A stretch of DNA of 32,078 nucleotides, taken from assembly GCA_024279865.1 (NCBI GenBank), contig JAJRRC010000033.1:1-32078 (forward strand), written 5' to 3'. Positions within the stretch are counted from its first letter, which is position 1. Each line of letters begins with the position of its first letter. The position numbers were made by a program, and so were the translations under genes. A model generated the notes under the pieces. The model was not told the DNA's origin, ran no database searches, and worked only from the letters and a program-made list of their open reading frames with translations. This document shows positions 1-32,078 of the stretch, piece by piece. Origin of the DNA: Planctomycetota bacterium. Its GTDB lineage: Bacteria > Planctomycetota > Phycisphaerae > Phycisphaerales > Phycisphaeraceae.

Positions 1-338
1 GTATTAACCCAGATTTAATAAAAGGGCGATATTTTTGAGAATTGTAAAAGGAGACCGTTTTGAGCCAGTGAAAGTGGTGTTTTTGATTGCGGGGGAAATG
101 TGGTACAGAAGCATGGTTTGAGTGGGTGTTGGAGCCTTGGAGACAAAAACCATTTTGCATCGCATTGGTTTTGAAGCCACTTGGCGCGTAAAATTAACCA
201 CGAGGTGGTGATGGTTGAAAAACACAAGGGAAAATAACAGCAAAAAATCCTCAGCAAGCCCCCCTCAAAATGACGATAGAGAATAAAAACATGCTGACTT
301 TGAATTGATCCTCAATACCCGCAAGAGAGACCTACTTT
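1..338. other. Intergenic region upstream of clpC
   Basis: No convincing gene is visible in this stretch. Two overlapping minus-strand reading frames of about 80 codons exist, but they have no recognisable family features and no clear ribosome binding site. The last 60 bases are presumably the clpC leader, with a purine-rich GAGAG shortly before the clpC ATG. I did not find a CIRCE or CtsR-type operator by eye. Confidence 0.5.
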
Positions 339-2867
339 ATGTTTGAAAGATTTACAGATCGCGCTCGCAAAGTGATGGCCTTGGCCAATCAAGAAGCCCA
401 ACGCTTCAACCACGAATACATCGGTACCGAGCATGTTCTGCTCGGACTGGTGAAAGAAGGGTCTGGTGTGGGTGCCAATGTCCTGAAAAATTTAGACGTT
501 GATCTTCGCAAAGTGCGATTGGAAGTGGAGAAGCTCGTCAAGAGTGGCCCCGACATGGTCACCATGGGCAAGCTGCCTCAAACACCCCGCGCGAAAAAAG
601 TCATCGAATACGCGATTGAAGAAGCTCGCGACCTAAATCACAACTACGTCGGGACCGAGCATCTATTGCTAGGCCTTCTTCGTGAACACGAAGGCGTGGC
701 CGCTCAGGTTTTGATGAACCTTGGGCTCAAGCTCGAAGAGGTGCGTGAGGAAGTGCTGAACCTATTGGGGGCGGGTGTCGATACCGAAGGGCAAACACAA
801 GACACGCCCAAGAGCGGTTTATCCTCCAAAAGCAAGAAAAATTCCAAGACCCCCGCACTGGACAGCTTTGGTCGGGATTTGACGGTTTTGGCCAAGGAAA
901 ATCAGCTTGACCCGGTGATCGGTCGTGCTGATGAAATTGAACGACTCATTCAAATTTTGTGTCGTCGTACCAAGAACAATCCTGTGTTGCTCGGTGAAGC
1001 AGGTGTGGGCAAGACTGCCATTGTCGAAGGCTTGGCTCAGAAGATTATTGGCAACGATGTGCCTGAAATTTTGTCCGAGCGACGTATTGTCGTGTTGGAC
1101 CTGGCGATGATGGTCGCGGGGACCAAGTATCGAGGCCAGTTTGAAGAGCGAATCAAAGCGGTGATGAACGAAGTTCGTCGCGCTAAAAATGTTCTGTTGT
1201 TCATTGATGAATTGCACACGCTTGTCGGTGCAGGCGGGGCGGAGGGCGCGATTGATGCTGCCAATGTGTTAAAACCAGCTTTGTCGCGTGGCGAGATTCA
1301 GTGTATTGGTGCCACCACGTTAGATGAGTACCGCAAGTACATTGAAAAAGACAGTGCGTTGGAGCGTCGTTTCCAGACGATTCTTGTTGAGCCACCAAAC
1401 GCAAAAGAGACCGTTGAGATTCTCAAGGGTCTGCGAGATCGTTATGAAGCTCACCATCGCGTTCAGATTACCGATGATGCGGTTCTCAGTGCGGTGGAGC
1501 TTTCGACGCGTTATATCACCGGTCGGGTCCAGCCCGACAAGTCCATTGATGTGATTGATGAAGCGGGCGCTCGCATTCGCCTTAAGAGCATGAGCAAGCC
1601 GCCGAACCTTGCCGAAATTGAAGAGCAGATCGAACATCTCAGCGTTGAGAAGGATGAAGCCGTCAAAGCTGCCGACTACGAGCGAGCTGCCGAGCTACGT
1701 GACAAGGCAGAAACCCTGCGTCGCAACAAAGAAGAGATTCTTTCAGAGTGGCGATCCAAGAGCAAGGAAGTCGACGGCGTGGTGGATGAAGAAACCATTG
1801 CTGAAGTCGTTTCTAAGATGACCGGTATTCCGCTGACCCGTTTGGATACCGCAGAAAGCGAACGCTTGCTCAGACTTGAAGACGAACTGCACAAACGCGT
1901 CGTCAGCCAGGACGAAGGCATCAAGATTATCGCCAAGGCGCTGCGTCGCGCCCGGTCAGGCCTCAAAGATCCACGTCGACCAATGGGGTCCTTCATCTTC
2001 GTCGGGCCATCGGGTGTGGGCAAGACCTTGCTCTCCAAAGCCCTCGCAGAATTCATGTTCGGCGATGAAGAATCGCTCATCCGTATCGACATGTCCGAAT
2101 ACATGGAGAAACACAATATCAGCCGCCTCATCGGCGCGCCTCCCGGATACGTCGGCTACGAAGAAGGTGGCCAACTGACCGAACAAATCCGTCGGCGGCC
2201 TTACTCGGTGGTGCTGCTTGATGAAATCGAAAAAGGACACCCCGACGTCTTCAACATGCTCCTGCAGATCATGGAAGAAGGTCAACTCACCGATTCGTTC
2301 GGCCGTCATGTGGACTTCCGCAACACCGTCTTAATTATGACCAGCAACATCGGTTCAGATCTGATCAAAACCGGCGGCGGGTTCGGCTTCGCCAAGCCCA
2401 ATGAAGAAACCGACTATGACAAAATGAAGCAAACGCTCACCAGTGAAATCGAGCGATACTTCCGACCTGAATTCATCAACCGCCTAGACGACATCATCGT
2501 CTTCCGCGCTCTAAACAGAACCAACCTTGAGCAAATCGTTCATTATGAACTACGCAAAGTCAGTGAACGTCTCAGTGCTCGAAACCTGTCGCTAGAGCTT
2601 GATGAAAAAGCTCGCGATTACCTCATTGAAAAGGGCTACAACCCCGATTACGGTGCGCGTCCTTTGCGTCGTGCGATTGAACACCATGTGGAAGATGCTT
2701 TGTCCGAAGCGATTCTGCGAGGCCAGTTCAAGGCTGGCCAGTTGATCAAAGCGACCAAGAAAGATGGCGTTGATGCGTTGGAATTTGAAACCGTTGATAT
2801 GCCTCCAGAAGACAAAGATGCTGACAAAACCAGCGGCCTAGCTCAGGCGGGAGCCGAGTCAACCTAA
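339..2867 (+). CDS. clpC: ATP-dependent Clp protease ATPase subunit ClpC
   Basis: This is a Hsp100/Clp AAA+ unfoldase that feeds substrates to the ClpP peptidase in the cytoplasm. At 842 residues it has the usual ClpC length. Two Clp N repeats occupy about residues 3-75 and 80-145. The first AAA+ module has Walker A GEAGVGKT at 219-226 and Walker B ending in D290-E291. A UVR-type coiled linker (AADYERAAELRDKAE) lies near 425-460 and is diagnostic of ClpC rather than ClpA or ClpB. The second module has Walker A GPSGVGKT at 556-563, followed by the conserved PPGYVGYEEGG pore loop and a complete C-terminal D2 small domain (NPDYGARPLRRAIE). The ATG follows a GAGAG-type ribosome binding site. The gene stands alone, and neither mcsA/mcsB nor ctsR is next to it. 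The last 30 residues are an acidic, poorly conserved tail. Confidence 0.97.
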   Translation: MFERFTDRARKVMALANQEAQRFNHEYIGTEHVLLGLVKEGSGVGANVLKNLDVDLRKVRLEVEKLVKSGPDMVTMGKLPQTPRAKKVIEYAIEEARDLNHNYVGTEHLLLGLLREHEGVAAQVLMNLGLKLEEVREEVLNLLGAGVDTEGQTQDTPKSGLSSKSKKNSKTPALDSFGRDLTVLAKENQLDPVIGRADEIERLIQILCRRTKNNPVLLGEAGVGKTAIVEGLAQKIIGNDVPEILSERRIVVLDLAMMVAGTKYRGQFEERIKAVMNEVRRAKNVLLFIDELHTLVGAGGAEGAIDAANVLKPALSRGEIQCIGATTLDEYRKYIEKDSALERRFQTILVEPPNAKETVEILKGLRDRYEAHHRVQITDDAVLSAVELSTRYITGRVQPDKSIDVIDEAGARIRLKSMSKPPNLAEIEEQIEHLSVEKDEAVKAADYERAAELRDKAETLRRNKEEILSEWRSKSKEVDGVVDEETIAEVVSKMTGIPLTRLDTAESERLLRLEDELHKRVVSQDEGIKIIAKALRRARSGLKDPRRPMGSFIFVGPSGVGKTLLSKALAEFMFGDEESLIRIDMSEYMEKHNISRLIGAPPGYVGYEEGGQLTEQIRRRPYSVVLLDEIEKGHPDVFNMLLQIMEEGQLTDSFGRHVDFRNTVLIMTSNIGSDLIKTGGGFGFAKPNEETDYDKMKQTLTSEIERYFRPEFINRLDDIIVFRALNRTNLEQIVHYELRKVSERLSARNLSLELDEKARDYLIEKGYNPDYGARPLRRAIEHHVEDALSEAILRGQFKAGQLIKATKKDGVDALEFETVDMPPEDKDADKTSGLAQAGAEST

Positions 2868-2916
2868 AGGCACACAGATCACGATTACTGCCAATTTGCA
2901 GTCAAATACAAAAGCC

Positions 2917-3030
2917 AGAAGGGTATACCAATCTCAGTTGAGTTTTCCCGTTTTCCTTTGGACGTGGCGCTTTGTTTTGAGCGTTTAAATCGTTTCCATC
3001 GCGGACATTCTCATACCCGATGGGTATATG
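2917..3030 (+). repeat. Dispersed intergenic repeat, copy A
   Basis: Two blocks match the reverse complement of 7149-7372. TTGAGTTTTCCCG at 2938-2950 is identical to the complement of 7337-7349. The 32 bases at 2997-3028 match the complement of 7155-7186 at 28 of 32 positions. The second block contains the hairpin ATACCC-GAT-GGGTAT (3013-3027), and GGGTATA recurs near both ends (2921-2927 and 3022-3028). The central part differs in length between copies. No transposase is present, so it could be a MITE-like remnant or another non-coding repeat family. Confidence 0.65.
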
Positions 3031-3168
3031 CTTCGAAAGAACTGTACGTTTCTGGCTTTTTTTGTGGACTTGTCGTGAACGCCTTGATCGCGTTTTGCAT
3101 CACCGTGTTTTTGCCTTGGACTTGAGCGTGACGAATTTGGAATCCGACTCTTCGGCAGACCTTAGAAT

Positions 3169-3211
3169 GCGGCTTTGTCAAAGCCGCAAGCTTACAGCTT
3201 GCGCGTCCGGG
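3169..3211. repeat. REP-like tandem hairpins, copy 1
   Basis: A near-perfect palindrome GCGGCTTTGTCAAAGCCGC (3169-3187) abuts a second hairpin GCAAGC-TTACA-GCTTGC (3186-3202), followed by GCGTCCGGG. The 29 bases at 3183-3211 match 18875-18903 at 26 positions. Two of the three differences form a compensatory base-pair change in the stem (A-T here, C-G there), which supports a selected or replicated hairpin. The site lies between convergent genes and may act as a terminator. Confidence 0.75.
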
Positions 3212-3246
3212 AGCATGGGGGTTTACTTGGAGAAGTGTCTGACGGA

Positions 3247-4095
3247 TTACGACTTGATCTCTGCGATGTCTTGCCTTAGAGACAGGCGATAGGCCCGTGG
3301 GGTTTGTCCTGCGATTTCTTTGAATGCTTTGTAAAATCGGCTGAGGCTGTTGAATCCGCTGGCCAGGGCGACCTGTAGAATATCCATGTCATGGGTGATT
3401 AATAAGCGTTGTGCGTAGCTGATACGTTGGCGGGTGACGTATTGGTTGAGTGTGAGGCCGTAATGTTTTCGAAACAGCGTCATGGCATAATTGGGGTGCA
3501 GCCCGACCGACTTTGCGATCTGGTCTATGGGCAGGTCTTCGGTAAAATGCTCAGCAATATAACGTGTGAGACGAATGATTTTGGGGTGACAGGCGATGGG
3601 ATCGATTTTGCCTGTTTTTACTTTTTGATGGTTGAGGCCGAATCGTTTGAGGCGGGCTTGAATTTCATCCAATGCGATTTTTTGAAATATGACCTTGCTC
3701 TGCTGGCAATCTTGAGCCCACTGTTGGATCAAGGCTCCATCGAGTTGGGGCTGGCTGGGGTCTGTGAGCATGTGGCCGTTCAGCAAATTTTTGACAAACG
3801 ATTTGGGCAACGGCCATTGAAGAACCCAGTTCATGGGAAGCACCGCACATCCGAGTCGGGTATTGGGTTCGATATGAATAACCTGGTGAGGCACGGTCGC
3901 CCAGAAAGCAGTCAACGCGCCCGGTGAAAGCGTGACAAGTTGTCCGCCCAGCAGATAGGTCATGCGTCCGGAAAAGACATAATTCAATTCCATGTCCGAA
4001 TGTTGATGTGCCTCGGGCATGACATGGACGCTGAGGGTTCGAACACCAAAAGGAATTTGCGTGGCCCAATTTTTGATGGGATCGGTCCGCTTCAT
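3247..4095 (-). CDS. AraC/MelR-like transcriptional regulator
   Basis: This is a 282-residue AraC/XylS-family activator. The N-terminal part (about 20-85) looks like a cupin sugar-sensing domain and carries the MelR-like pattern DMELNYVFSGRMTYLLGG, followed by an FWATVPHQ motif. The C-terminal part has the two AraC helix-turn-helices: DQIAKSVGLHPNYAMTLFRK at about 191-210, and the second at about 238-261 containing ASGFNSLSRFYKAFK. I chose the ATG at 4095 because the codon before it is TTG and adds only one residue. No strong ribosome binding site is visible. It is transcribed divergently from the URO-D-like gene with under 100 bases between them, so that gene is the likely target. The MelR resemblance suggests a carbohydrate or glycoside ligand, but this is inference. 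Confidence 0.9.
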   Translation of the reverse strand: MKRTDPIKNWATQIPFGVRTLSVHVMPEAHQHSDMELNYVFSGRMTYLLGGQLVTLSPGALTAFWATVPHQVIHIEPNTRLGCAVLPMNWVLQWPLPKSFVKNLLNGHMLTDPSQPQLDGALIQQWAQDCQQSKVIFQKIALDEIQARLKRFGLNHQKVKTGKIDPIACHPKIIRLTRYIAEHFTEDLPIDQIAKSVGLHPNYAMTLFRKHYGLTLNQYVTRQRISYAQRLLITHDMDILQVALASGFNSLSRFYKAFKEIAGQTPRAYRLSLRQDIAEIKS

Positions 4096-4192
4096 CAATA
4101 TTATGATACAGGAAAATAAATGTTTTATGACGGAAGAAATATAACTAAATATTGTTATTCTTGTATTTTTCGTGACAGCGAAAGGGGATTTA
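4096..4192. promoter_or_regulatory. Divergent control region of the AraC and URO-D-like genes
   Basis: This 97-base gap is strikingly AT-rich compared with its neighbours and must hold the 5' signals of both divergent genes. The purine run AAAGGGGAT ends about six bases before the ATG at 4193 and is a strong ribosome binding site for the plus-strand gene. Several short AT-rich inverted arms (for example ATAAC and GTTAT near 4141-4159) could be regulator sites. No -35/-10 pair stands out enough to assign. Confidence 0.5.
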
Positions 4193-5281
4193 ATGGAAAT
4201 TTTACAAAAACCTGATTTTCAAAAAACGCTTGAACGTTTTGAAGCATGGTGGCATGGGGAGGTGCTTGATCGGCCGGTGGTGACGGCGTATGTGTTGCCT
4301 CATTGTGCTCCGGTGCTTGGGTCCAAGACGCATGTGTCGATGTTGGATCGTTGGCTGGACGTAGAATTTCAAGTGGAACGGGCGGTGGAGGAAATGGAAT
4401 GTCGGTCGTATGTGGCAGATGGTTTTCCCGCTTATTGTCCCAATGTCGGGCCTGAGGTGACGGCAACTTTGTTGGGTTGTGTAGTTGATTTTTTAGATGA
4501 GAGAACCGGCTGGGCCAAGCCCGTGGTGCAGCAGCCGGAGGATTGGGCGAAGGTGACGATTGAGAGTCTGGATTTTACGGGCCGATTTTGGCAAACGATG
4601 ACGCAGATGACGAATTTGGCTTTGGAAATGAGCCAGGGGCGCTATCTGGTGGGCATGACGGACCTGCATGGCAATTATGACATTTTGGCAGCATTACGCG
4701 ATCCTCAGTATTTGTGCATGGACTTGCTGGATTGCCCCGGGGCCGTGAGGCAGGCCTCGAAGGTGGCTCGTCAGGCGATGTCGGAGGCTTTTGAGCGGAA
4801 CTACGCCTTGATTGCCAAAGCGGGGATGCCTTCAACCTGCTGGGCGGGATTTTTGCATCAGGGGCCTGCCTATATTCCCAGTTGTGATTTTTGGTGCATG
4901 CTCGGGACCGCCATGGCTCGTGATGAGGTGCTCGCTGATATTGCGTTTGAAATGCAGGCCATGAAGCGTTCAATTTTTCATCTCGATGGTCCTGATGCGC
5001 TGAAGCACTTGGATATGTTGCTTGAATTAGACGATTTGGATGCCGTTCAATGGGTCTATGGAACGGGCCACGGCATGGCCAGTGATTGGTTAGAGGTATA
5101 CCAGCGAATTCAGGCTTCAGGCAAAAGTATTCAGGTCATTGCTCAAGACCCCGTTGATGCGATGAATTGTCTGGAGGCCTTGAATCCGCAGGGCTTGTGG
5201 TTAACCCTTGTGGAGCCGTTTGAGTCCGTGGATCAGGCTCAGGTGTTTATAAAAGAAGTAGAGCGAACTATCTGTCAATAG
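4193..5281 (+). CDS. Uroporphyrinogen decarboxylase-like (URO-D superfamily) protein
   Basis: This 362-residue protein resembles the COG0407/URO-D-like branch frequent in Planctomycetota and Lentisphaerota, not the haem enzyme HemE. Visible signatures are ERFEAWWHGEVLDRPVV near the N-terminus, a central DLHGNYDILAALRDPQ, and the C-terminal HLDGPDALKHLDMLLEL followed by QWVYGTGHG. URO-D superfamily members decarboxylate porphyrinogens or transfer methyl groups to corrinoid or thiol acceptors; the reaction here is unknown. The reading frame opens with a GTG at 4172, but the strong site AAAGGGGAT lies between that GTG and the ATG at 4193, so 4193 is preferred. It lies divergent from a MelR-like AraC regulator, which suggests an inducible role in sugar or C1-related catabolism. 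Confidence 0.8.
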   Translation: MEILQKPDFQKTLERFEAWWHGEVLDRPVVTAYVLPHCAPVLGSKTHVSMLDRWLDVEFQVERAVEEMECRSYVADGFPAYCPNVGPEVTATLLGCVVDFLDERTGWAKPVVQQPEDWAKVTIESLDFTGRFWQTMTQMTNLALEMSQGRYLVGMTDLHGNYDILAALRDPQYLCMDLLDCPGAVRQASKVARQAMSEAFERNYALIAKAGMPSTCWAGFLHQGPAYIPSCDFWCMLGTAMARDEVLADIAFEMQAMKRSIFHLDGPDALKHLDMLLELDDLDAVQWVYGTGHGMASDWLEVYQRIQASGKSIQVIAQDPVDAMNCLEALNPQGLWLTLVEPFESVDQAQVFIKEVERTICQ

Positions 5282-5507
5282 TGGACTTGAGTCGTGTAAT
5301 GATTGCCTGAATACTTTACAACAATAGAAGAATAGGCATGACGATTGCGATGGGTTTACCATATCTTGAGGATAAAAAGGTCCTTATATTCAAATTTCTT
5401 GCTTATCATAGGCTGGCAGACATCAAGTGCGAGTTCTCACAGGCCGATGAATTGTATAGTTATCTTGCTTTATGGTGTTCCGTTTTTGGGGTGGGTAATA
5501 GATACGC

Positions 5508-7022
5508 ATGAATCAATCGCTACTTGATAAAATTCTTAGTTCACCTCGGTTGCCGAGTTTGCCTGCAATTGCCATTGAGGTGATTGATCTGGTGCAGCAG
5601 CGTGATGTCAATATCAAGCAGATTGCTCAGACGATTCAGCATGATCCTGCGTTGTCCAGTAAAATTTTAAAGACAGTCAACTCCAGCTTTTATGGCCAAG
5701 CTCATTCGGTGGGAACCATCAGCCACGCCTTGGTGGTGTTGGGGTTGAACAGCGTAAAAACCCTTGCCTTGGGTTTTAGCTTGGTGGGCAATTTAACTCA
5801 AACCAATGAAGATGGATTTAATCATCTGAACTTTTGGAAACGAAGCCTTTACGGCGCGGTTGCCGCGAGGTCTTTGGCCAAACAGGTCGGGCTCGTTCAG
5901 CAGGAAGAATCTTTTCTCGGCGGCCTACTGCAAGACTTGGGCCTTTTGGCAATGCTTGAAACCATTGGCGATGATTACAAGGAACTCCTTCAGGAAATAG
6001 GCACGGATCACGCTCAGTTGCACATGCTCGAACGTGAAAAATTTGACCTGACCCATGCCCAGATCGGCGGTATCTTGGCGGATAACTGGAAATTGCCTCC
6101 ACTGTTGGCCAATTCCATTCGATTCCACGAAACACCCGAACTGGCGCCCGAGGAGGTCTTGCCTTCGGTTCGATGTGTCAGTTTGGGGTCCATGGCAGCA
6201 GATATTTTTGTCAATGAACAGTCGCCCGGAGAAATGCTTGATCGCTATTACCGTCATGCCTCTGAATGGTTCGGCATGAGCCAGGAACAAGCAGAACCTC
6301 TGCTGAATAGCATTCACGACGGTTCCACAGAAATGAAGCGTCTGTTCGATCTGCCCACCAGTGATTTTGACAATTCCGATGATATTTTAGCTCGCGCCAA
6401 TGAGGCCTTGCTCAACTTGAGTATGCAACAACAGCAGCAGGCTGCGGCACTCGAAGCAAAAAACAGAGAACTCATCGCTCAAGCGGAATGTGACCCATTG
6501 ACAGGCGTGGCCAATCGTCGCAAGTTCAGTGACTATATCAATGAACATTTTATGTTAACGACCCAGACGGGTGATCCTGTTTCCGTTTTGTTTATGGATG
6601 TGGATCACTTTAAAAACGTGAATGATACGTATGGTCATCAGACAGGCGATCATGTTCTTGTTGAAATCGCCAGCACGCTCAATCAAGCAGTTCAGGCTCC
6701 TGGGCTGGTTGCTCGTTATGGCGGAGAAGAGTTTGCCATTATCTTGCCTGGCACAGACCGCGTCTCGGCCGCTCGCATTGCGGATGATTTGAGGCTCGCC
6801 ATTGCTGAAACGCCCTTGAAATCCGATGAAAATGAACCTTTGAGCATTACCGCCAGTATTGGCGTGGCTTGTTACGACGGCACTTTTTTCACGAGTCCCA
6901 ATCAACTCATCAAAGCTGCGGACCAAGGGGTTTATGCCGCGAAAAATGCCGGCCGCAACCTCGTTCGCGTGTTTGCTCCCAAAGTCAAACCCAAAGTCTC
7001 CGCACCTGTGACAGCGGCTTAA
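5508..7022 (+). CDS. HDOD domain - GGDEF diguanylate cyclase fusion
   Basis: This is a 504-residue cytoplasmic signalling protein. The N-terminal HDOD domain (about 10-210) has the typical LPSLPAIAIEVIDL opening and DPALSSKILKTVNSSFYG. A Gln-rich helical linker (about 300-322) leads to a GGDEF domain starting at AECDPLTGVANRRKF (about 325-490). The catalytic loop is intact as RYGGEEF, with GGEEF at 405-409, so cyclic-di-GMP synthesis is likely. The inhibitory I-site RxxD five residues upstream is missing (QAPG occupies the position), so feedback inhibition by c-di-GMP is probably absent. There are no membrane segments. The ATG at 5508 has a GGGGTGGG stretch about 16 bases upstream as a poor ribosome binding site. 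No operon partner is visible. Confidence 0.93.
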   Translation: MNQSLLDKILSSPRLPSLPAIAIEVIDLVQQRDVNIKQIAQTIQHDPALSSKILKTVNSSFYGQAHSVGTISHALVVLGLNSVKTLALGFSLVGNLTQTNEDGFNHLNFWKRSLYGAVAARSLAKQVGLVQQEESFLGGLLQDLGLLAMLETIGDDYKELLQEIGTDHAQLHMLEREKFDLTHAQIGGILADNWKLPPLLANSIRFHETPELAPEEVLPSVRCVSLGSMAADIFVNEQSPGEMLDRYYRHASEWFGMSQEQAEPLLNSIHDGSTEMKRLFDLPTSDFDNSDDILARANEALLNLSMQQQQQAAALEAKNRELIAQAECDPLTGVANRRKFSDYINEHFMLTTQTGDPVSVLFMDVDHFKNVNDTYGHQTGDHVLVEIASTLNQAVQAPGLVARYGGEEFAIILPGTDRVSAARIADDLRLAIAETPLKSDENEPLSITASIGVACYDGTFFTSPNQLIKAADQGVYAAKNAGRNLVRVFAPKVKPKVSAPVTAA

Positions 7023-7376
7023 GATTTATCCTTTGAAATGGTATTCTGTGACACGCTCGATCTGTGAGAGATTCGAGACGCTGTTTGATTCAAGGCAGAC
7101 ATGCCCTTAATGCGGTGATTGCATTGCGGGGTCATTTCCCATCACGACGATAGGTATCCCCATCGGGTATGAGAGTTCCCGCGATGAAAGTTTTTAAAGC
7201 GAACAGTTGCTAGTAAGAGAAGATAATCGGACACTGTTTTCCCGTTTTTTCCAAATTCTCCATCTCTTTTCTGCTCCTATTTTTACGGATAGCTGATCAC
7301 TAAAACAAAATGCCGCATACGCAAGCAAACCGGGGGCGGGAAAACTCAATCATGAGGGGTATAGATTGGGAATGTT
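7023..7376. other. Repeat-bearing convergent gap after the GGDEF gene
   Basis: These 354 bases lie between the 3' ends of the GGDEF gene (plus) and the EIIA gene (minus). No gene is seen. Most of the right two thirds is the second copy of the dispersed repeat. An imperfect inverted repeat (CTCGATCT and AGATTCGAG near 7052-7078) follows the GGDEF stop but lacks a T-run. Confidence 0.55.
7149..7372 (-). repeat. Dispersed intergenic repeat, copy B
   Basis: This is the inverted, longer counterpart of 2917-3030. Conserved blocks are 7155-7186 (28 of 32 positions matching the complement of 2997-3028) and 7337-7349 (13 of 13 matching the complement of 2938-2950). On the minus strand a stretch resembling the GGCGCTTTGTTTTGA of copy A is also recognisable (GGCATTTTGTTTTAG). 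About 100 extra bases separate the blocks here. The two copies flank the araC/URO-D/GGDEF segment in opposite orientations. Confidence 0.6.
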
Positions 7377-7847
7377 TTAGCTTTTAACAGTTTCTGCTTG
7401 ATTCTTTTCGATTAAATCAAAGACCGTTTGAGCATCGGTTGCTTGCGAGATGTTTTCGCGGGTTTCGTCATTGACAAGCATTTGGCTCACCGCTGCGAGT
7501 GCTTGAATGTGTAAGCTGGTTTGATCGGTGGGGGAGACCAGTAGCAAAATGAGGTTGACTGGTTTTTGATCCAGTGAGTCGAACTCCATGGGGGAGGCTG
7601 GTTTGCCGACAGCCATGAGCAGTTGGTCGTTGCTGCTGGTCTTGCCGTGGGGAATAGCAATGCCGTTGCCGATGCCTGTGGTGCGTGTGGTTTCTCGTTC
7701 CCAGACTACTTTTTTGAGTTCATCGACGTTGGCAATAGCGTGTTGTTGGGCTAGCAGATCGACTAATTCATAGATAGCTGCCTGCTTGTCGGTGGCAGTC
7801 AGTGGGACTTTGATACATTGGGGATGAAGAATATCTGTCAGCCGCAT
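7377..7847 (-). CDS. PTS EIIA protein, fructose/nitrogen (PtsN) type
   Basis: This 156-residue protein is a single phosphotransfer domain of the PTS EIIA-2 (fructose/mannitol/PtsN) family. The active-site loop GIGNGIAIPHGKT places the phospho-accepting histidine at residue 67. The domain opens with LTDILHPQCIKV and ends with a typical helical region. No EIIB/EIIC domain or Hpr gene is adjacent, so a regulatory PtsN-like role is more likely than sugar transport. The frame extends 66 codons upstream, but that part is not family-like. The ATG at 7847 has an AAAGGAT site about six bases upstream, so it was chosen. It is divergent from recQ across 196 bases. Confidence 0.92.
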   Translation of the reverse strand: MRLTDILHPQCIKVPLTATDKQAAIYELVDLLAQQHAIANVDELKKVVWERETTRTTGIGNGIAIPHGKTSSNDQLLMAVGKPASPMEFDSLDQKPVNLILLLVSPTDQTSLHIQALAAVSQMLVNDETRENISQATDAQTVFDLIEKNQAETVKS

Positions 7848-8043
7848 GGTCGATCCTTTGTTGGTCGGAGCAAGACGAAAGAAGAATACCGTCCTACCGC
7901 GGTGTCGGCAAATGAGGCCTCGGATATAGATCGTATCTCCAAAGGGCTTCAAATGGGTGAGACAGCGGTCGAACCCGGTCATGTTCGGGGTAAAAACGTG
8001 CTGTAATTGGTATGGCCCGTCAAATCGGATACGCTTAAGCCTC

Positions 8044-9891
8044 ATGACTCAAACGGCGGCACAACCTGGGCAGGGCGAATTGGACCGCACACTCAAAGAA
8101 CGCTTTGGGCATGACCAATTTAGACCGTTGCAGCAATCCATTGTGGAGGAAGTACTTGCAGGGCGTGATGTCTTAACCATCATGCCCACCGGCGGCGGTA
8201 AGTCCTTGTGCTATCAGTTGCCTGCGGTCCTGACTGAGGGATTGACGCTGGTTGTATCGCCTTTGATTGCCTTGATGATCGATCAGGTCAAAGCCATGCA
8301 ATCCAACGGCATTCGGGCAGCTTATCTCAACTCCAGCCTCGATTTTGACCAAGTGATCCAAACCGAACGTGAGGCCATGACTGGGCAGCTCGATCTGCTT
8401 TACATGGCCCCTGAACGCTTAATGGGAACCCATGGCCAGCGATTGCTCCGTCAACTTCACATCAGCCTGCTGGCAGTAGACGAAGCACACTGCATCAGTG
8501 AATGGGGGCACGATTTTCGACCGGAATACCGAATGATCGGCCAATTGAGACAAGACCCCCAATTGCAGCTCGCCCAAGTCCCGATGATCGCGTTGACCGC
8601 CACGGCCACGCCTCGGGTCGCTGAAGATATTGCCGCCCAACTCCAGTTACGCGAGCCTGAAATCTACCGACGTAGTTTTGAGCGGCAAAATTTATACTAC
8701 GAAGTACGTCCCAAACAACGGGTCGCCGACCAAATTGTCGCCTATGTCAACGAACATCCCCAAGACGAAGGGATTGTCTATTGCCATAGCCGAGCTGCCA
8801 CCGAACGGCTCGCAGACAAACTGCAAAAAGCGGGCATCAATGCCAAGCCTTACCACGCGGGCTTGCCTCATGAAGAACGGCAGGCCAATCAGCATGATTT
8901 TGTGTATGGCCAAACCCAGGTCATGACCGCTACGATTGCTTTTGGGATGGGGATTGATAAGCCCGACGTGCGTTTTGTGATTCACGCAGATATGCCTCGC
9001 CATTTGGAGGGGTATTATCAGGAAACCGGACGAGCGGGTCGTGATGGTTTGGATGCGGATTGTTTGCTGTTTTTTTCAGCAGGTGATCGGGCCAAGATTG
9101 AGCATTTTTTTGATGAAAAAAGCGACGAAGAGCGCAAGCTCGCTCAGTGGCAGTTAAACCAGATGGTACAATTTTCGTATGCGACGAATTGCAGGTGTGT
9201 GCCGTTGTTGGGGTATTTTGGGGAGGCACATGCGGGAAATTGTGGGCATTGTGATAATTGTCGCATGCCTCCGGAGCAGGTCGATGCCACCGAAGACGCT
9301 CAAAAAACGCTCAGCGCCGTCGCTCGGGTCGAACAACGGTTTGGCATTGGCTATGTCATTGATCTGTTGCGTGGCAAGGCCAATGAACGGTCCGAACGCT
9401 ATGGCCACGAGTCATTGCGTATTTTTGGAATTGGCAAATCAGCCCCCGCAGCCTATTGGCGTCGGCTCATCGATGCGTTGCTTTGTGATGGCTATCTGGT
9501 CCAATCATCCGATGAGTATCCGGTTTTGTGTTTGACCGAAAGTAGCTTGTCACTTTTACGAGGTGAGCAGACGTATCAAATCGTCAAGCCTCGTGCGCTC
9601 AAACAAATTAAAAGCACCAAGGCTTCAAGAGGGGGGCGTACATCTGCTAGCGAAATTGAAGGGATGGACGTGGACGAAGCCATGTTCCACGAATTGCGGA
9701 CCTTGCGACGAGAATTGGCTGAAAAACAGGGCATCGCAGCCTATATGGTTTTTAGTGATGTCTCTTTGCGTCACATGGCTTCGGTGAAGCCCTCCACGTT
9801 GGACGAATTTTCCCAGATCAACGGCGTGGGCGCGAAAAAACGTGAACAGTACGGCCCCACGTTTATCGAAAAAATAACAGAACTAATGTAA
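8044..9891 (+). CDS. recQ: ATP-dependent DNA helicase RecQ
   Basis: This is a complete 615-residue 3'-5' superfamily 2 helicase acting in recombinational repair, close to the usual bacterial RecQ length. The order is: motif 0 FGHDQFRPLQQ, Walker A TGGGKS (K53), DEAH box D146-H149 followed by the aromatic-rich loop CISEWGHDFRPEY, helicase C with QETGRAGRDG, a zinc site (cysteines in CRC and CGHCDNC), RQC winged helix, and a C-terminal HRDC domain ending in INGVGAKKREQYG. The frame is open to 7957, but the 29 upstream codons do not look like RecQ. The ATG at 8044 gives the normal N-terminus, although its ribosome binding site is weak. The 289 bases after it contain no recognisable gene. Confidence 0.97.
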   Translation: MTQTAAQPGQGELDRTLKERFGHDQFRPLQQSIVEEVLAGRDVLTIMPTGGGKSLCYQLPAVLTEGLTLVVSPLIALMIDQVKAMQSNGIRAAYLNSSLDFDQVIQTEREAMTGQLDLLYMAPERLMGTHGQRLLRQLHISLLAVDEAHCISEWGHDFRPEYRMIGQLRQDPQLQLAQVPMIALTATATPRVAEDIAAQLQLREPEIYRRSFERQNLYYEVRPKQRVADQIVAYVNEHPQDEGIVYCHSRAATERLADKLQKAGINAKPYHAGLPHEERQANQHDFVYGQTQVMTATIAFGMGIDKPDVRFVIHADMPRHLEGYYQETGRAGRDGLDADCLLFFSAGDRAKIEHFFDEKSDEERKLAQWQLNQMVQFSYATNCRCVPLLGYFGEAHAGNCGHCDNCRMPPEQVDATEDAQKTLSAVARVEQRFGIGYVIDLLRGKANERSERYGHESLRIFGIGKSAPAAYWRRLIDALLCDGYLVQSSDEYPVLCLTESSLSLLRGEQTYQIVKPRALKQIKSTKASRGGRTSASEIEGMDVDEAMFHELRTLRRELAEKQGIAAYMVFSDVSLRHMASVKPSTLDEFSQINGVGAKKREQYGPTFIEKITELM

Positions 9892-28664: not shown

Positions 28665-30012
28665 ACCAGTTTTAACCAAACGTATCCCAACGCCACCCTT
28701 TGGCTCGTTCGCGGATCGCAAACTCAATACCTATGAAGATTTTGTTCGCACCGGCGGCTATGAATCGCTCAAAAAAGCGGTCGCAATGGAACCTTCAGAC
28801 ATTGTCGAAGTCGTCAAGGCCAGCGAACTACGCGGCCGCGGCGGTGCAGGATTCCCCGCAGGGATGAAGTGGAGTTTCCTTCCACCTCAAGATGGCGAAC
28901 CTCGCTACCTTGCGGTCAATAGCGATGAATCCGAGCCAGGCACGTTCAAGGATCGCATGTTGCTGGATTTCGATCCACATCTCCTGCTTGAAGGCATTGC
29001 CATCTGCATGAAGGCTTGCCAGCTCGACACAACTTATATTTACATTCGTGGTGAATACCACGCACAAACCAAAATCCTGGAAAACGCCATCAACGAAGCC
29101 TACGCCAACGGTATCTTCGGCGACCAATCCATCATGGGCAAAGTCAATGACCGCTTCCCCAACTGTTATGTCCATCGCGGGGCAGGAGCCTATATCTGTG
29201 GCGAAGAAACCGCACTGCTCAACTCGCTCGAAGGCAAACGCGGTTGGCCTCGTATCAAGCCTCCATTCCCAGCCGTCGCGGGTGCGTTTGGCAGACCCAC
29301 GATTATCAACAACGTTGAATCGCTGGCTATGGTCGGCCCGATCCTGCTCAATGGACCTCAGTGGTTCAAAAGCATGGGCGTGGGACGACCTGAAGGAGCC
29401 CCGCCTCAAGTGCCCGCAAGCTACGGCCCAAAACTGTTCGGCATCTCAGGCCATATCAATCGGCCCGGTGTCTATGAAGAAAATCTTGGTATCACCGTCA
29501 AAGACCTCATTGAAACCTACGGCGGAGGGATGCGCCACGGCAAAAAATTCAAAGCTGCCATCCCAGGCGGTATTGCCATGGGCGTGCTGGGGACCGATCA
29601 ATACGATGCGCCTTTGGATTTTGATATCGGCAAAAAATTCGCTTGCCTCGGTCTGGGAACCGCCGGCGTGATTGTCATGGACGAAGACACCGACATGGTC
29701 GCAGCTTTGCGAAATATCGTCCGGTTTTTCTCACATGAATCTTGTGGCCAATGTACCCCTTGTCGTGAGGGCGGAAACTGGATGTACAAAACGCTTTGCC
29801 GTATTGAGCAAGGTGATGGGACCACCAAAGACCTTGATTTGCTTTTGGAAATCGCGGCTTCGATGGGAGCCATGCCCGGAACCACGATTTGTGGCCTGGC
29901 TGATGGCGCGAATTGGGCGGTACGCACCTTCATCAATAAATTTTGGGATGAATTCGAATCACGCGTCAAGCCGAGCGTCGAACGGGTGATTCCTTTAGCG
30001 GTGGTGCAGTAG
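28651..30012 (+). CDS. nuoF: NADH-quinone oxidoreductase subunit F
   Basis: This 453-residue protein is the 51 kDa subunit that binds NADH, FMN and one [4Fe-4S] cluster. The NADH-binding glycine loop GRGGAGFPAGMKW and the FMN stretch NSDESEPGTFKDR are present, as is GAGAYICGEETALLNSLEG. The cluster ligands are Cys365, Cys368, Cys371 (SCGQCTPCREG) and Cys414 (TTICGLADG). Ribosome binding site AGAGG lies 10 bases before the ATG. No nuoG follows; instead a minus-strand frame overlaps the 3' end. Confidence 0.97.
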   Translation: MAFNEPVLTKRIPTPPFGSFADRKLNTYEDFVRTGGYESLKKAVAMEPSDIVEVVKASELRGRGGAGFPAGMKWSFLPPQDGEPRYLAVNSDESEPGTFKDRMLLDFDPHLLLEGIAICMKACQLDTTYIYIRGEYHAQTKILENAINEAYANGIFGDQSIMGKVNDRFPNCYVHRGAGAYICGEETALLNSLEGKRGWPRIKPPFPAVAGAFGRPTIINNVESLAMVGPILLNGPQWFKSMGVGRPEGAPPQVPASYGPKLFGISGHINRPGVYEENLGITVKDLIETYGGGMRHGKKFKAAIPGGIAMGVLGTDQYDAPLDFDIGKKFACLGLGTAGVIVMDEDTDMVAALRNIVRFFSHESCGQCTPCREGGNWMYKTLCRIEQGDGTTKDLDLLLEIAASMGAMPGTTICGLADGANWAVRTFINKFWDEFESRVKPSVERVIPLAVVQ

Positions 30013-30190
30013 TTTTTTGAATCAGTTGACGTAGTAATTGGACACCAACACTCATCAGTTGTTGCTCGTTAGCTTGGTGTAGAAACGCTTGGGACTGGTC
30101 GTCTAACGGCGGGTTATGCCATTCACGGTAGACAGGAATCTGGGCTAGTAATTTCAGAACTTCAGTGTCAACCTGTTCGTTGCTCTGCAT
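29966..30190 (-). CDS. Small hypothetical protein overlapping the 3' end of nuoF
   Basis: This 74-codon minus-strand frame ends 47 bases inside nuoF. The start has AAGGCAGC about 9 bases upstream. The product is amphipathic and mostly helical (EVLKLLAQIPVYREWHNPP, then QLMSVGVQLLRQLIQ), with no membrane segment and no recognised motif. Its regular hydrophobic pattern and ordinary amino-acid composition argue for a real gene, but only the outer three quarters avoids the nuoF constraint. Confidence 0.45.
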   Translation of the reverse strand: MQSNEQVDTEVLKLLAQIPVYREWHNPPLDDQSQAFLHQANEQQLMSVGVQLLRQLIQKTTAPPLKESPVRRSA

Positions 30191-30326
30191 TGAGCTGCCT
30201 TGCTCCGGACCCCAGAAGTTATTCGAGAATTCTTTCGGAAAATCTCTGTACAGAAATTCTCATCGGCCATATTGAGACCTGTCTTCACATGTTGATACCG
30301 ATCTTGTTAAGATGCCTTTTTTACAA

Positions 30327-30355
30327 GTTGTCAGTTGTCAGTGAACAGTTGTCAG
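30327..30355. repeat. Short TTGTCAG tandem-like repeat
   Basis: Three GTTGTCAG units (30327, 30334 and 30348 starts approximately) lie in this 29-base stretch, the second and third separated by TGAACA. It is in the non-coding region before the rhodanese-like lipoprotein gene. No regulatory role is evident. Confidence 0.5.
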
Positions 30356-30450
30356 CAAGAGGGGAGAATCTGGAAACGGGTTGTCGTTTTTTTTCATCCC
30401 CCTTCTTTTTTGCTGGCGGATCACTTGATTTGTTTTATTTGGAGTGAATG

Positions 30451-30864
30451 ATGAAATATCGCTTTTTGTTGGCTGTTTTGGTTTTGGTTGGCATGATCGG
30501 GTGTAAGGGTAGCCCCAAGGTCAGTGACCAGGATTTACAGCAGATTGAATACCCCAAGCTCTTGGAATTGCGAGAATCTCCCAAGTTGACCGTGGTGATT
30601 GTGGATGTGCGATCCGCTGCTCAGTACGCTCAGGGTCATTTGCCCAATGCGATCCATATCCCTCTTGCAGAGCTGGATTACCGAGACGCTCGTCTGGGCA
30701 ATGCCGATGCGGTGGTGGTCTATGCCGGCGGATGGACGGAGTTTTTATCACCCGCAGCCGCCAAAAAACTATTGGCCATGGGCTACAAAAATATCTACGA
30801 TTTCCGAGGCGGAATCGAAATATGGAAAGCCTACGGCGGAAAATTGACCACCCCCCAGAAGTAA
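30451..30864 (+). CDS. Rhodanese-fold lipoprotein lacking the catalytic cysteine
   Basis: This 137-residue protein starts with a signal sequence ending in MIGC, where Cys18 would be lipid-modified. The rhodanese-like domain follows: VVIVDVRSAAQYAQGHLPNAIHIP (about 48-71) and YDFRGGIEIWKAYGG at the end. The active-site loop, normally C-x-x-G-x-R, reads YAGGWTEF, with Ala92 where Cys is expected, so sulfur transfer is unlikely and a binding role is more plausible. Two ATG codons are adjacent; the second (30451) is at the better distance from GGAG. A hairpin follows the gene. Confidence 0.85.
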   Translation: MKYRFLLAVLVLVGMIGCKGSPKVSDQDLQQIEYPKLLELRESPKLTVVIVDVRSAAQYAQGHLPNAIHIPLAELDYRDARLGNADAVVVYAGGWTEFLSPAAAKKLLAMGYKNIYDFRGGIEIWKAYGGKLTTPQK

Positions 30865-30913
30865 CCCCCGCTTCCGGTTACCACTTATCGTGAAACATGG
30901 CTTTTATCAAAAA

Positions 30914-30956
30914 CCGAAAAAGTGGATTCAAAAACGGTCCTCTGCCACTTTTTCAG
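30914..30956. terminator. Terminator-like inverted repeat after the lipoprotein gene
   Basis: GAAAAAGTGG (30916-30925) and CCACTTTTTC (30945-30954) are perfect 10-base arms around a 19-base loop, extendable with one mismatch. The A/T runs lie in the stem on both strands, so it could stop transcription in either direction. It separates the lipoprotein gene from the AT-rich gene downstream. Confidence 0.55.
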
Positions 30957-31014
30957 TCTTCGGTGTGACACCTGATATTTCTATTGAGTATTCACAAATA
31001 AGGGATAAGTTTCG

Positions 31015-31923
31015 ATGGGCAAGATCAAGGTGATAAAATTGCCACTTACAGCAGCATATAAATTTGGCAAATCTCACAATTTGGCATCTGAAATTGAAGC
31101 GATACGTCAGATGAAAATTGTGTGGGATAAAACATACAAATCGTCTTTGCGGTCTGCTTACATTATAGAATTGTTTGAAAAGCATAATATTTATCAGGCA
31201 TTCAAAGATACATGTTGGCCTGATGGTAATAGTGGCTCAGGTAATTTGAAACGCCTTTGGTATTTCAAGCTCCAAAGTCAGCAGAGAAATTATGCTAGGA
31301 GTCATATATGTGAGGTGAATCTTGGTGGAAAACTCAATAAAAACAATCAAGAGTTGGGCCAATCGGAGACTTTGGACCAATCAATGAGTCCATGCCCCGT
31401 TCTTTTCTTCAAAAGTCACAATATTCTACTCAAAAAACGCATAGCTAATTTTCTTGAATTGGCGTTAACTAATAGCTCGGACGCTTTTTTGCTTGGAATA
31501 TTATTAGATAGGTTTCTATGGACAGCTACAGAAGATAACGATAAAAATGAACGCGTGAAATATATCGGCCAACCATATTGGTCAAAAGAAGCAATACTAC
31601 AGTATCAGCGTCAGAATCAAGGTCGAAAAAACAAATATATAAAAAATCTCAGGCATGAGCATATTGTTCCTCGAAATATAATCAAGAAACGTATTTTGGG
31701 TCTTCCAATCAAGAGTGCCGAGAATATATTTAAAATTCTTGAATCATGTTCTCATGCGGTAATTGTTACGAAAAAAGAAGACCAACGATTAAAGGACGTT
31801 GGGTTGAATAAAGACATGCCGGAGTCTTTCCATAAAGACGGAAATATTAAAGCAAGATATCAAGCGGCTGGTATTGAAATAAGAGAGGTTACAGGGCAGA
31901 ACCTTAAAAAAATTATGTTGTGA
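31015..31923 (+). CDS. AT-rich unknown protein with HNH-like motif
   Basis: This 302-residue protein is markedly richer in A/T, Lys, Asn and Ile than its neighbours, which suggests horizontal acquisition. No signal peptide or membrane segment is seen. The N-terminal part (AAYKFGKSHNLASEIEAIRQ) is helical and basic. RHEHIVPR at 213-220 resembles the first strand of an HNH nuclease fold, and a conserved-looking AVIVTKKEDQRL followed by DMPESFHKDG and ARYQAAGIEI closes the protein. This could be a DNA-modification or defence-related nuclease, but the second metal-binding half is not certain. The start has AAGGGATAAG about 10 bases upstream. I do not recognise a named family. Confidence 0.6.
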   Translation: MGKIKVIKLPLTAAYKFGKSHNLASEIEAIRQMKIVWDKTYKSSLRSAYIIELFEKHNIYQAFKDTCWPDGNSGSGNLKRLWYFKLQSQQRNYARSHICEVNLGGKLNKNNQELGQSETLDQSMSPCPVLFFKSHNILLKKRIANFLELALTNSSDAFLLGILLDRFLWTATEDNDKNERVKYIGQPYWSKEAILQYQRQNQGRKNKYIKNLRHEHIVPRNIIKKRILGLPIKSAENIFKILESCSHAVIVTKKEDQRLKDVGLNKDMPESFHKDGNIKARYQAAGIEIREVTGQNLKKIML

Positions 31924-32025
31924 GGGGCTGGGGCTTACAGGGCCATCGCATCTAAAATTCGCTCGAATACCGAATAGTAGGGTTTTGATAGGCATTGCGC
32001 CCTTACGCCTTGTTTGTTAGATTAG

Positions 32026-32074
32026 GGTCATGACCTGACGTGTGAGGCCTCACGTTTAATAAAATCCTTTGACA
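32026..32074 (+). promoter_or_regulatory. Palindromes and -35 element at the window edge
   Basis: Two perfect palindromes are close together: GGTCATGACC (32026-32035) and GTGAGGCCTCAC (32042-32053). A consensus TTGACA (32069-32074) follows, with AAGGA as the last bases. This may be the operator and promoter of a gene beyond the window; the -10 element is not visible, so the assignment is tentative. Confidence 0.35.
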
Positions 32075-32078
32075 AGGA

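Follow-up and report, generated by a model that had tools for sequence, protein, structure and literature searches.

A solitary, probably acquired gene for two unnamed domains in a Phycisphaeraceae genome: a candidate restriction-type endonuclease

In design, the winged-helix fusion endonucleases, which are N6-methyladenine-dependent type IV enzymes, are among the closest described systems. Winged-helix modules are described as sensors shared by nucleases of different superfamilies among the type IV enzymes, and purified winged-helix fusion enzymes are reported to prefer methylated adenine (PMC11037411). A small module that is combined with various nucleases is, on this analogy, the design of modification-dependent restriction enzymes. 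A second reference is GmrSD (DUF262 + DUF1524), whose GmrD is described as a predicted His-Me nuclease with wide spacing of its key residues D113, H114, N169 and N178 (PMC4619093). Endonuclease NucS (PF01939) and the HNH/His-Me finger nucleases were included in the comparison as well. The first motif of HNH/His-Me nucleases has the form [D/E/H]-H-x-x-P, and in HNH proteins this motif usually has an EHxVP core.

Here, these systems are compared with a gene near the end of a 32,078-nucleotide stretch of DNA from a Planctomycetota bacterium (the window), which is the whole contig C51 of a 3.42-Mb genome in 122 contigs. With about even confidence, the gene is proposed to encode a solitary, acquired two-domain restriction-type endonuclease, composed of an unnamed N-terminal module and an unnamed HNH-like domain. 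The gene and its parts are as follows:

31015..31923, plus strand: two-domain open reading frame including the stop codon, 302 aa, ATG start (ORF call, GC, shuffles, relatives, leave-one-out profiles)
31033..31296, plus strand: unnamed N-terminal domain, residues 7-94 (leave-one-out HMM i-E 4.3e-18, Z=20000)
31429..31911, plus strand: unnamed C-terminal domain, residues ~139-299 (leave-one-out HMM i-E 1.7e-21, Z=20000, alignment A16)
31651..31674, plus strand: RHEHIVPR, residues 213-220, with H216 as candidate catalytic His
31765..31782, plus strand: VTKKED, residues 251-256, with D256 as candidate metal ligand
31816..31881, plus strand: MP...RYxxAGI tail motif, residues 268-289
30913..30957, no strand: hairpin-forming stretch, a possible (weak) terminator between a rhodanese-like gene and the 302-aa gene

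An earlier note on this DNA had placed a gene with RHEHIVPR at residues 213-220 at 31015-31923, and the motifs were indeed found there (RHEHIVPR at 213-220, MPESFH at 268-273, ARYQAAGIEI at 280-289). Stop-free runs on the gene's strand reached at most 152 codons when 30865-31937 was shuffled 500 times (mononucleotide shuffles); therefore, the 302-codon frame is not due to chance. Relatives in other genomes also back it as a real gene. The sharp difference in composition from the neighbours, noticed earlier, was borne out by a GC content of 36.2% (GC3 33.7%), as compared to a mean of 50.9% (sd 2.1%, minimum 44.9%) in 603 stretches of 909 bp before the gene. Nine loci were compared in this way: at seven, the GC content of the gene was lower than that of the surrounding DNA by 6 to 11 points, and at two it was the same, the stretch used at one locus (L029) being approximate.

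In the order sample, own genome included, the C-terminal domain occurred in 5 of 301 genomes and the N-module in 2 of 301. The phylum samples yielded 4 of 392 genomes for either domain, and a broader C-domain profile found 2 of 231 genomes in a phylum sample; these genome samples overlap. The distribution of both domains is rare and patchy. Foreign composition and sporadic presence support the view of an acquired accessory gene put forward in the earlier note, and the low-GC gene was probably acquired horizontally. Integration at a tRNA gene was set aside, since the window holds none. No Rfam family matched 29900-32078 at the gathering score, and an RNA element was set aside on that account. 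Likewise, att-like repeats were set aside, as no exact direct repeat of at least 10 bp was found between 30401-31020 and about 300 bp past the gene, read across to contig C54. Only one promoter-like site was found in 30400-32078, and it lies within the gene (shuffles average 4.4). The stretch 30901-30975 folded at -15.9 kcal/mol, calculated for a single sequence without shuffle control, and the hairpin at 30913-30957 was not among the predictions of a terminator scan.

The protein consists, as judged from profile comparisons, of two separable homologous domains. In whole-genome searches with the 302-aa protein, relatives matched one half or the other and never both, the gene itself excepted. 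Profiles built without the window protein (Z=20000) recovered both domains with the i-E values listed above, the C-domain profile having an envelope of 139-299 and an aligned core of 178-289. This agrees with the earlier suggestion, drawn from the sequence, of a separate N-terminus ahead of a C-terminal domain that bears an HNH-like motif. The leave-one-out test is not fully independent because most relatives originally came from searches that used the window protein itself or a profile containing it. The best pairwise matches in a control with shuffled relatives had E values of 648 and 5.2. Pairwise, the C-domain of the window protein matched seven of the nine other rows of alignment A16 (E 5e-14 to 0.42), the weakest being L020b at E 0.42; no match to L020a or L022 was obtained at E <= 10. 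In sequence comparison, L020a, L020b and L022 join the C-domain family through intermediates.

Besides the window protein, the N-module is carried by L010/L024, L004, L003 and, as a fragment, L016. The closest relative, L010/L024, is a 273-codon frame in which the module is followed by a C-terminal NucS_C domain (PF01939, 36.5 bits against a cutoff of 24). The L010 genome belongs to the same family as the window genome, and L024 is a Phycisphaeraceae MAG record with an N-module identical to that of L010. The nuclease half of L024 matched the PADLOC candidate PDC-S02 (7.9e-21). In L004, a 317-codon frame, the module is joined to an HSDR_N_2 region that scored 24.4 bits, just below the cutoff of 25, and this HSDR-like fusion had no PADLOC match. 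L003 carries the module without a recognised partner. The piece at L016 (512-688), on a 3.5-kb contig, contains a stop and was counted as a fragment only; a RelE/ParE-like ORF, read by eye, adjoins it. At L029, a minus-strand frame downstream of 8151 reads by eye like a STAND-type NTPase; it comes after an N-module for which no partner domain was recognised.

One module was thus seen with different nuclease or nuclease-like domains (HEHxVP, NucS_C and, below the cutoff, HSDR_N_2); NucS_C is of PD-(D/E)XK type, and the HSDR_N_2 region is PD-(D/E)XK-like. The winged-helix fusion endonucleases resemble the window protein and its relatives in this respect, since they too combine a small module with nucleases of different superfamilies in solitary genes. 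In contrast to them, the N-module of the window protein matches no family, neither a winged helix nor methylation sensing is assumed for it, and the C-domain matches no HNH family. Compared with NucS, the window protein lacks the NucS_C catalytic domain and carries the HEHxVP domain in the place where its N-module relative L010/L024 has NucS_C.

The other members of the C-domain family are ten stand-alone proteins of about 157-218 aa (L002, L064, L011, L065, L012, two L020 copies, L022, L023 and L070). L022 lies on a Polaromonas conjugative plasmid, and L023 (5716-6270) lies on a 235-kb viral contig. Alignment A16 comprises ten rows including the window protein; L070 was found afterwards and is left out of it. 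In A16, H214 is conserved in 8 of 10 rows, position 215 is E in nine and D in one, H216 is present in 9 of 10 and P219 in all ten. At the second site, T252 is invariant (10/10), position 255 is E in eight rows and Q in two, and position 256 is D in six, H in three and A in one, the Ala being that of the viral-contig member. In the tail, M268 is found in eight rows (gaps in two), P269 in all ten as aligned, R281 in all ten and Y282 in nine, with F in the other. Both RHEHIVPR and the C-terminal pattern, singled out in the earlier note, are therefore conserved within the relatives of this domain. Exceptions to the first motif among the members are one HES, one RDH and one FEH, and an eleventh sequence, L070, which is outside the alignment, reads HEH...EEH by eye. 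At L020, two C-domain genes (482-1135 and 1315-1947) are arranged in tandem; they are 57% identical, one with HEH and the other with HES, and the HES copy may be inactive.

With [E/D]-H at 215-216 followed by the proline, 9 of 10 rows of the C-domain share the first motif of HNH/His-Me finger nucleases, including the candidate catalytic His. A D or H at position 256, the candidate second site, is likewise present in 9 of 10. It differs from them in that no profile matched and no classical HNH Asn was identifiable. The exchange of D and H at position 256 is what a metal ligand would allow. The spacing of 40 residues between H216 and D256 in the window protein is long; given the wide spacing in GmrD, it is not disqualifying. 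Conservation of H216 and of D/H at 256 plausibly fits the prediction of an HNH-like site, and the nuclease reading of the C-domain is plausible but unproven. By itself, the RHEHIVPR string is weak evidence, because an ORF at L008 (943-2052), which we take by eye to be LpxK, also holds HEHIVPR. This ORF was among the matches in five of nine genomes (G016, G017, G032, G047 and G122; L005-L009) that were dropped as chance: L005 and L009 had frames with stops, L006 and L007 had no shared motifs, and L008 otherwise reads as LpxK.

Searches against family and structure libraries did not name the protein. It had zero matches in Pfam, NCBIfam and PADLOC; in PHROGs, one match (E 0.076) to a family without assigned function was set aside. 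The best PDB match of the protein (E 0.73) and those of profiles of the two domains (E 0.27 and 0.3) were read as chance. The HNH profile search suggested in the earlier note gave no HNH family for the window protein or for the ten C-domain members, and in Pfam none of the ten rows of the C-domain alignment matched an HNH profile. Across the ten members, Pfam returned three weak families (best E 0.077), none of HNH type and each in one member, all of them in L012, and PHROGs returned phrog_28238 (E 0.0055) and phrog_2171 (E 0.023) in one member each, neither with a function. Two AlphaFold models, the second with an alignment of only the window protein and its viral relative, reached a mean pLDDT of 33.1 and 40.2, too low for a fold search. 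Scans of genome contigs, viral contigs, plasmids and phages with the window protein gave no relatives, and queries A7, A12, A14 and A15 had no matches among viral contigs. Query A11 returned only a contig already known, and query A9 found only the L024 record among genome contigs. N-modules were not found among plasmids, nor C-domain relatives among phages; the scans for related loci were seeded by short peptide patterns and may miss distant relatives. A literature search by the C-domain motif strings returned nothing on such an HEHxVP family.

Profiles were also run on the neighbours at L024, L067 and L022, where they revealed defence-type genes, and on three genes around the window gene, namely the rhodanese-like gene and two genes of C54. 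At L024 (602-3579), an AriAB-like (PARIS-type) ATPase gene (PADLOC 1.9e-52, AAA_21 above the Pfam cutoff) directly precedes the N-module/NucS_C gene, and the two possibly form a two-gene defence unit. At L067 (8507-11192), three genes lie in a row on one strand: a stand-alone C-domain gene without PADLOC match, about 150 bp further a GmrSD_N/NsnA gene (2.5e-70) in the same direction, and a gene with a HEPN match at E 0.014, under the cutoff and without PADLOC match. The order of the first two recalls the GmrS-GmrD pairing. Unlike GmrSD, the window protein has no DUF1524 match, as it has no Pfam match at all, and no GmrSD_N neighbour was noted beside its gene. Near the plasmid copy at L022, SIR2 (1.8e-71) and HerA (1.3e-175) were found about 1.3 kb and 2.3 kb away. 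Read by eye, the neighbours at L029 include a possible STAND-type frame, those at L023 on the viral contig include an ATP-dependent DNA ligase and a GIY-YIG protein, and those at L025-L028, L030 and L068 include no clear defence gene.

Since the window is a whole contig, its edge is a contig end, and it falls within an ISAs1-type element:

31928..31937, no strand: 10-bp target duplication CTGGGGCTTA, matching the sequence that flanks the right end of the element on C54
31938..32078, plus strand: left end of an ISAs1-type element, truncated after its first 141 bp where the contig stops (genome copies, terminal repeat, transposase tail)

The left end starts 14 bp past the stop codon of the gene. 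Bases 31938-32078 have 11 further copies in the genome with at least 96% identity across 127 bp or more, all of them lying directly at a contig end or within 40 bp of it. When up to one mismatch was allowed, the terminal 19-mer of the element was found 26 times, as against 0 for the reversed control. At the right end, a 40-aa transposase tail matched six plasmid records, five of them labelled ISAs1; it had no match in Pfam or NCBIfam. Many contigs of the genome (G000), among them C3, C7, C21, C24, C32 and C36, end where this element interrupts the assembly. For seven of 12 left ends, the 10 bp next to the element recur exactly beside a right end, 10 of which were compared, and the CTGGGGCTTA of the window pairs with contig C54 alone. 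The target duplications of this element are a way of ordering the contigs of this genome.

The genes beyond 32078, which the earlier note had proposed to inspect as a possible defence island continuing to the right, were reached through this link. Past the element, moving away from the gene, C54 first holds a TadA-like deaminase, which matched MafB19-deam and dCMP_cyt_deam_1 in Pfam; next come a Na/Pi-type transporter and then microcompartment genes. The GC content there is 48-56%, and the names TadA, transporter and most of the microcompartment names were assigned by eye. The microcompartment cluster (L060, about 255-9819) includes a phosphate propanoyltransferase (PTAC, 6e-70), and acetate kinase-, aldehyde dehydrogenase- and aldolase-like genes were read there by eye. 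To the left of the gene lies the rhodanese-like gene (PF00581), preceded by nuo-type genes (by eye). No defence genes were seen beside the window gene by Pfam and by eye, either on the left or on the right across the element, where the assignment rests on the 10-bp duplication. With ordinary genes at normal GC on C54, the island was set aside; the low-GC cargo is therefore one gene, if the duplication pairs the right contigs.

For the 302-aa protein, we infer fold, catalysis, target and a defence role, perhaps against phages, along the following lines. The N-module (residues ~7-94) would be a sensor that detects or binds the target, and the nuclease would be the C-terminal HEHxVP domain, cutting nucleic acid through an HNH/His-Me-like site. 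H216 would serve as general base that activates water, and D256, perhaps together with E215, would hold the metal.

Other explanations were weighed against this one. It is somewhat unlikely that the C-domain is no nuclease at all. In that case, HEHxVP would bind metal or play a structural part in a different kind of enzyme or in a binding protein, and the nucleases joined to relatives of the N-module would be misleading. Such a reading would account for the lack of a credible family or PDB match, for the poor structure models, for the imperfect conservation of the candidate site and for the motif string in the LpxK-like ORF. However, the EHxVP core is that of the first HNH motif, the second site swaps D and H as a metal ligand would, and elsewhere the N-module comes fused to a domain recognised as a nuclease.

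It is unlikely that the C-domain is an HNH-like nuclease of a mobile-element, homing-type or general DNA-processing enzyme with no part in defence. The viral-contig relative near DNA ligase-like and GIY-YIG-like genes, the relative on the conjugative plasmid and the six loci without evident defence neighbours are consistent with it; yet the element next to the gene begins past the stop codon and is an insertion sequence in its own right, present in many copies, and no exact direct repeats of 10 bp or more flank the gene in the stretches compared. A decaying relic, that is, an acquired gene no longer expressed beside which insertion elements are settling, would explain a lone low-GC gene with an insertion element 14 bp past its stop and a single promoter-like site located inside it. 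This is very improbable, as the ORF is intact and has its start codon, both domains are matched by profiles and the motifs are conserved.

Within the preferred reading of a two-domain restriction-type endonuclease, a broader idea is offered tentatively and appears possible rather than probable. Residues 7-94 may be an undescribed targeting module that is traded between PD-(D/E)XK nucleases of two kinds, one of them below the cutoff, and a new HNH-like HEHxVP family, giving single-gene restriction enzymes that would recognise some mark or structure of foreign DNA. The GmrSD_N, SIR2-HerA and AriAB-like neighbours of the relatives provide a short list of systems in which the role of the two domains may be sought. 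If the idea is true, two blocks unnamed in the libraries searched, a targeting module and an HNH-like family, would be added to the modular restriction enzymes.
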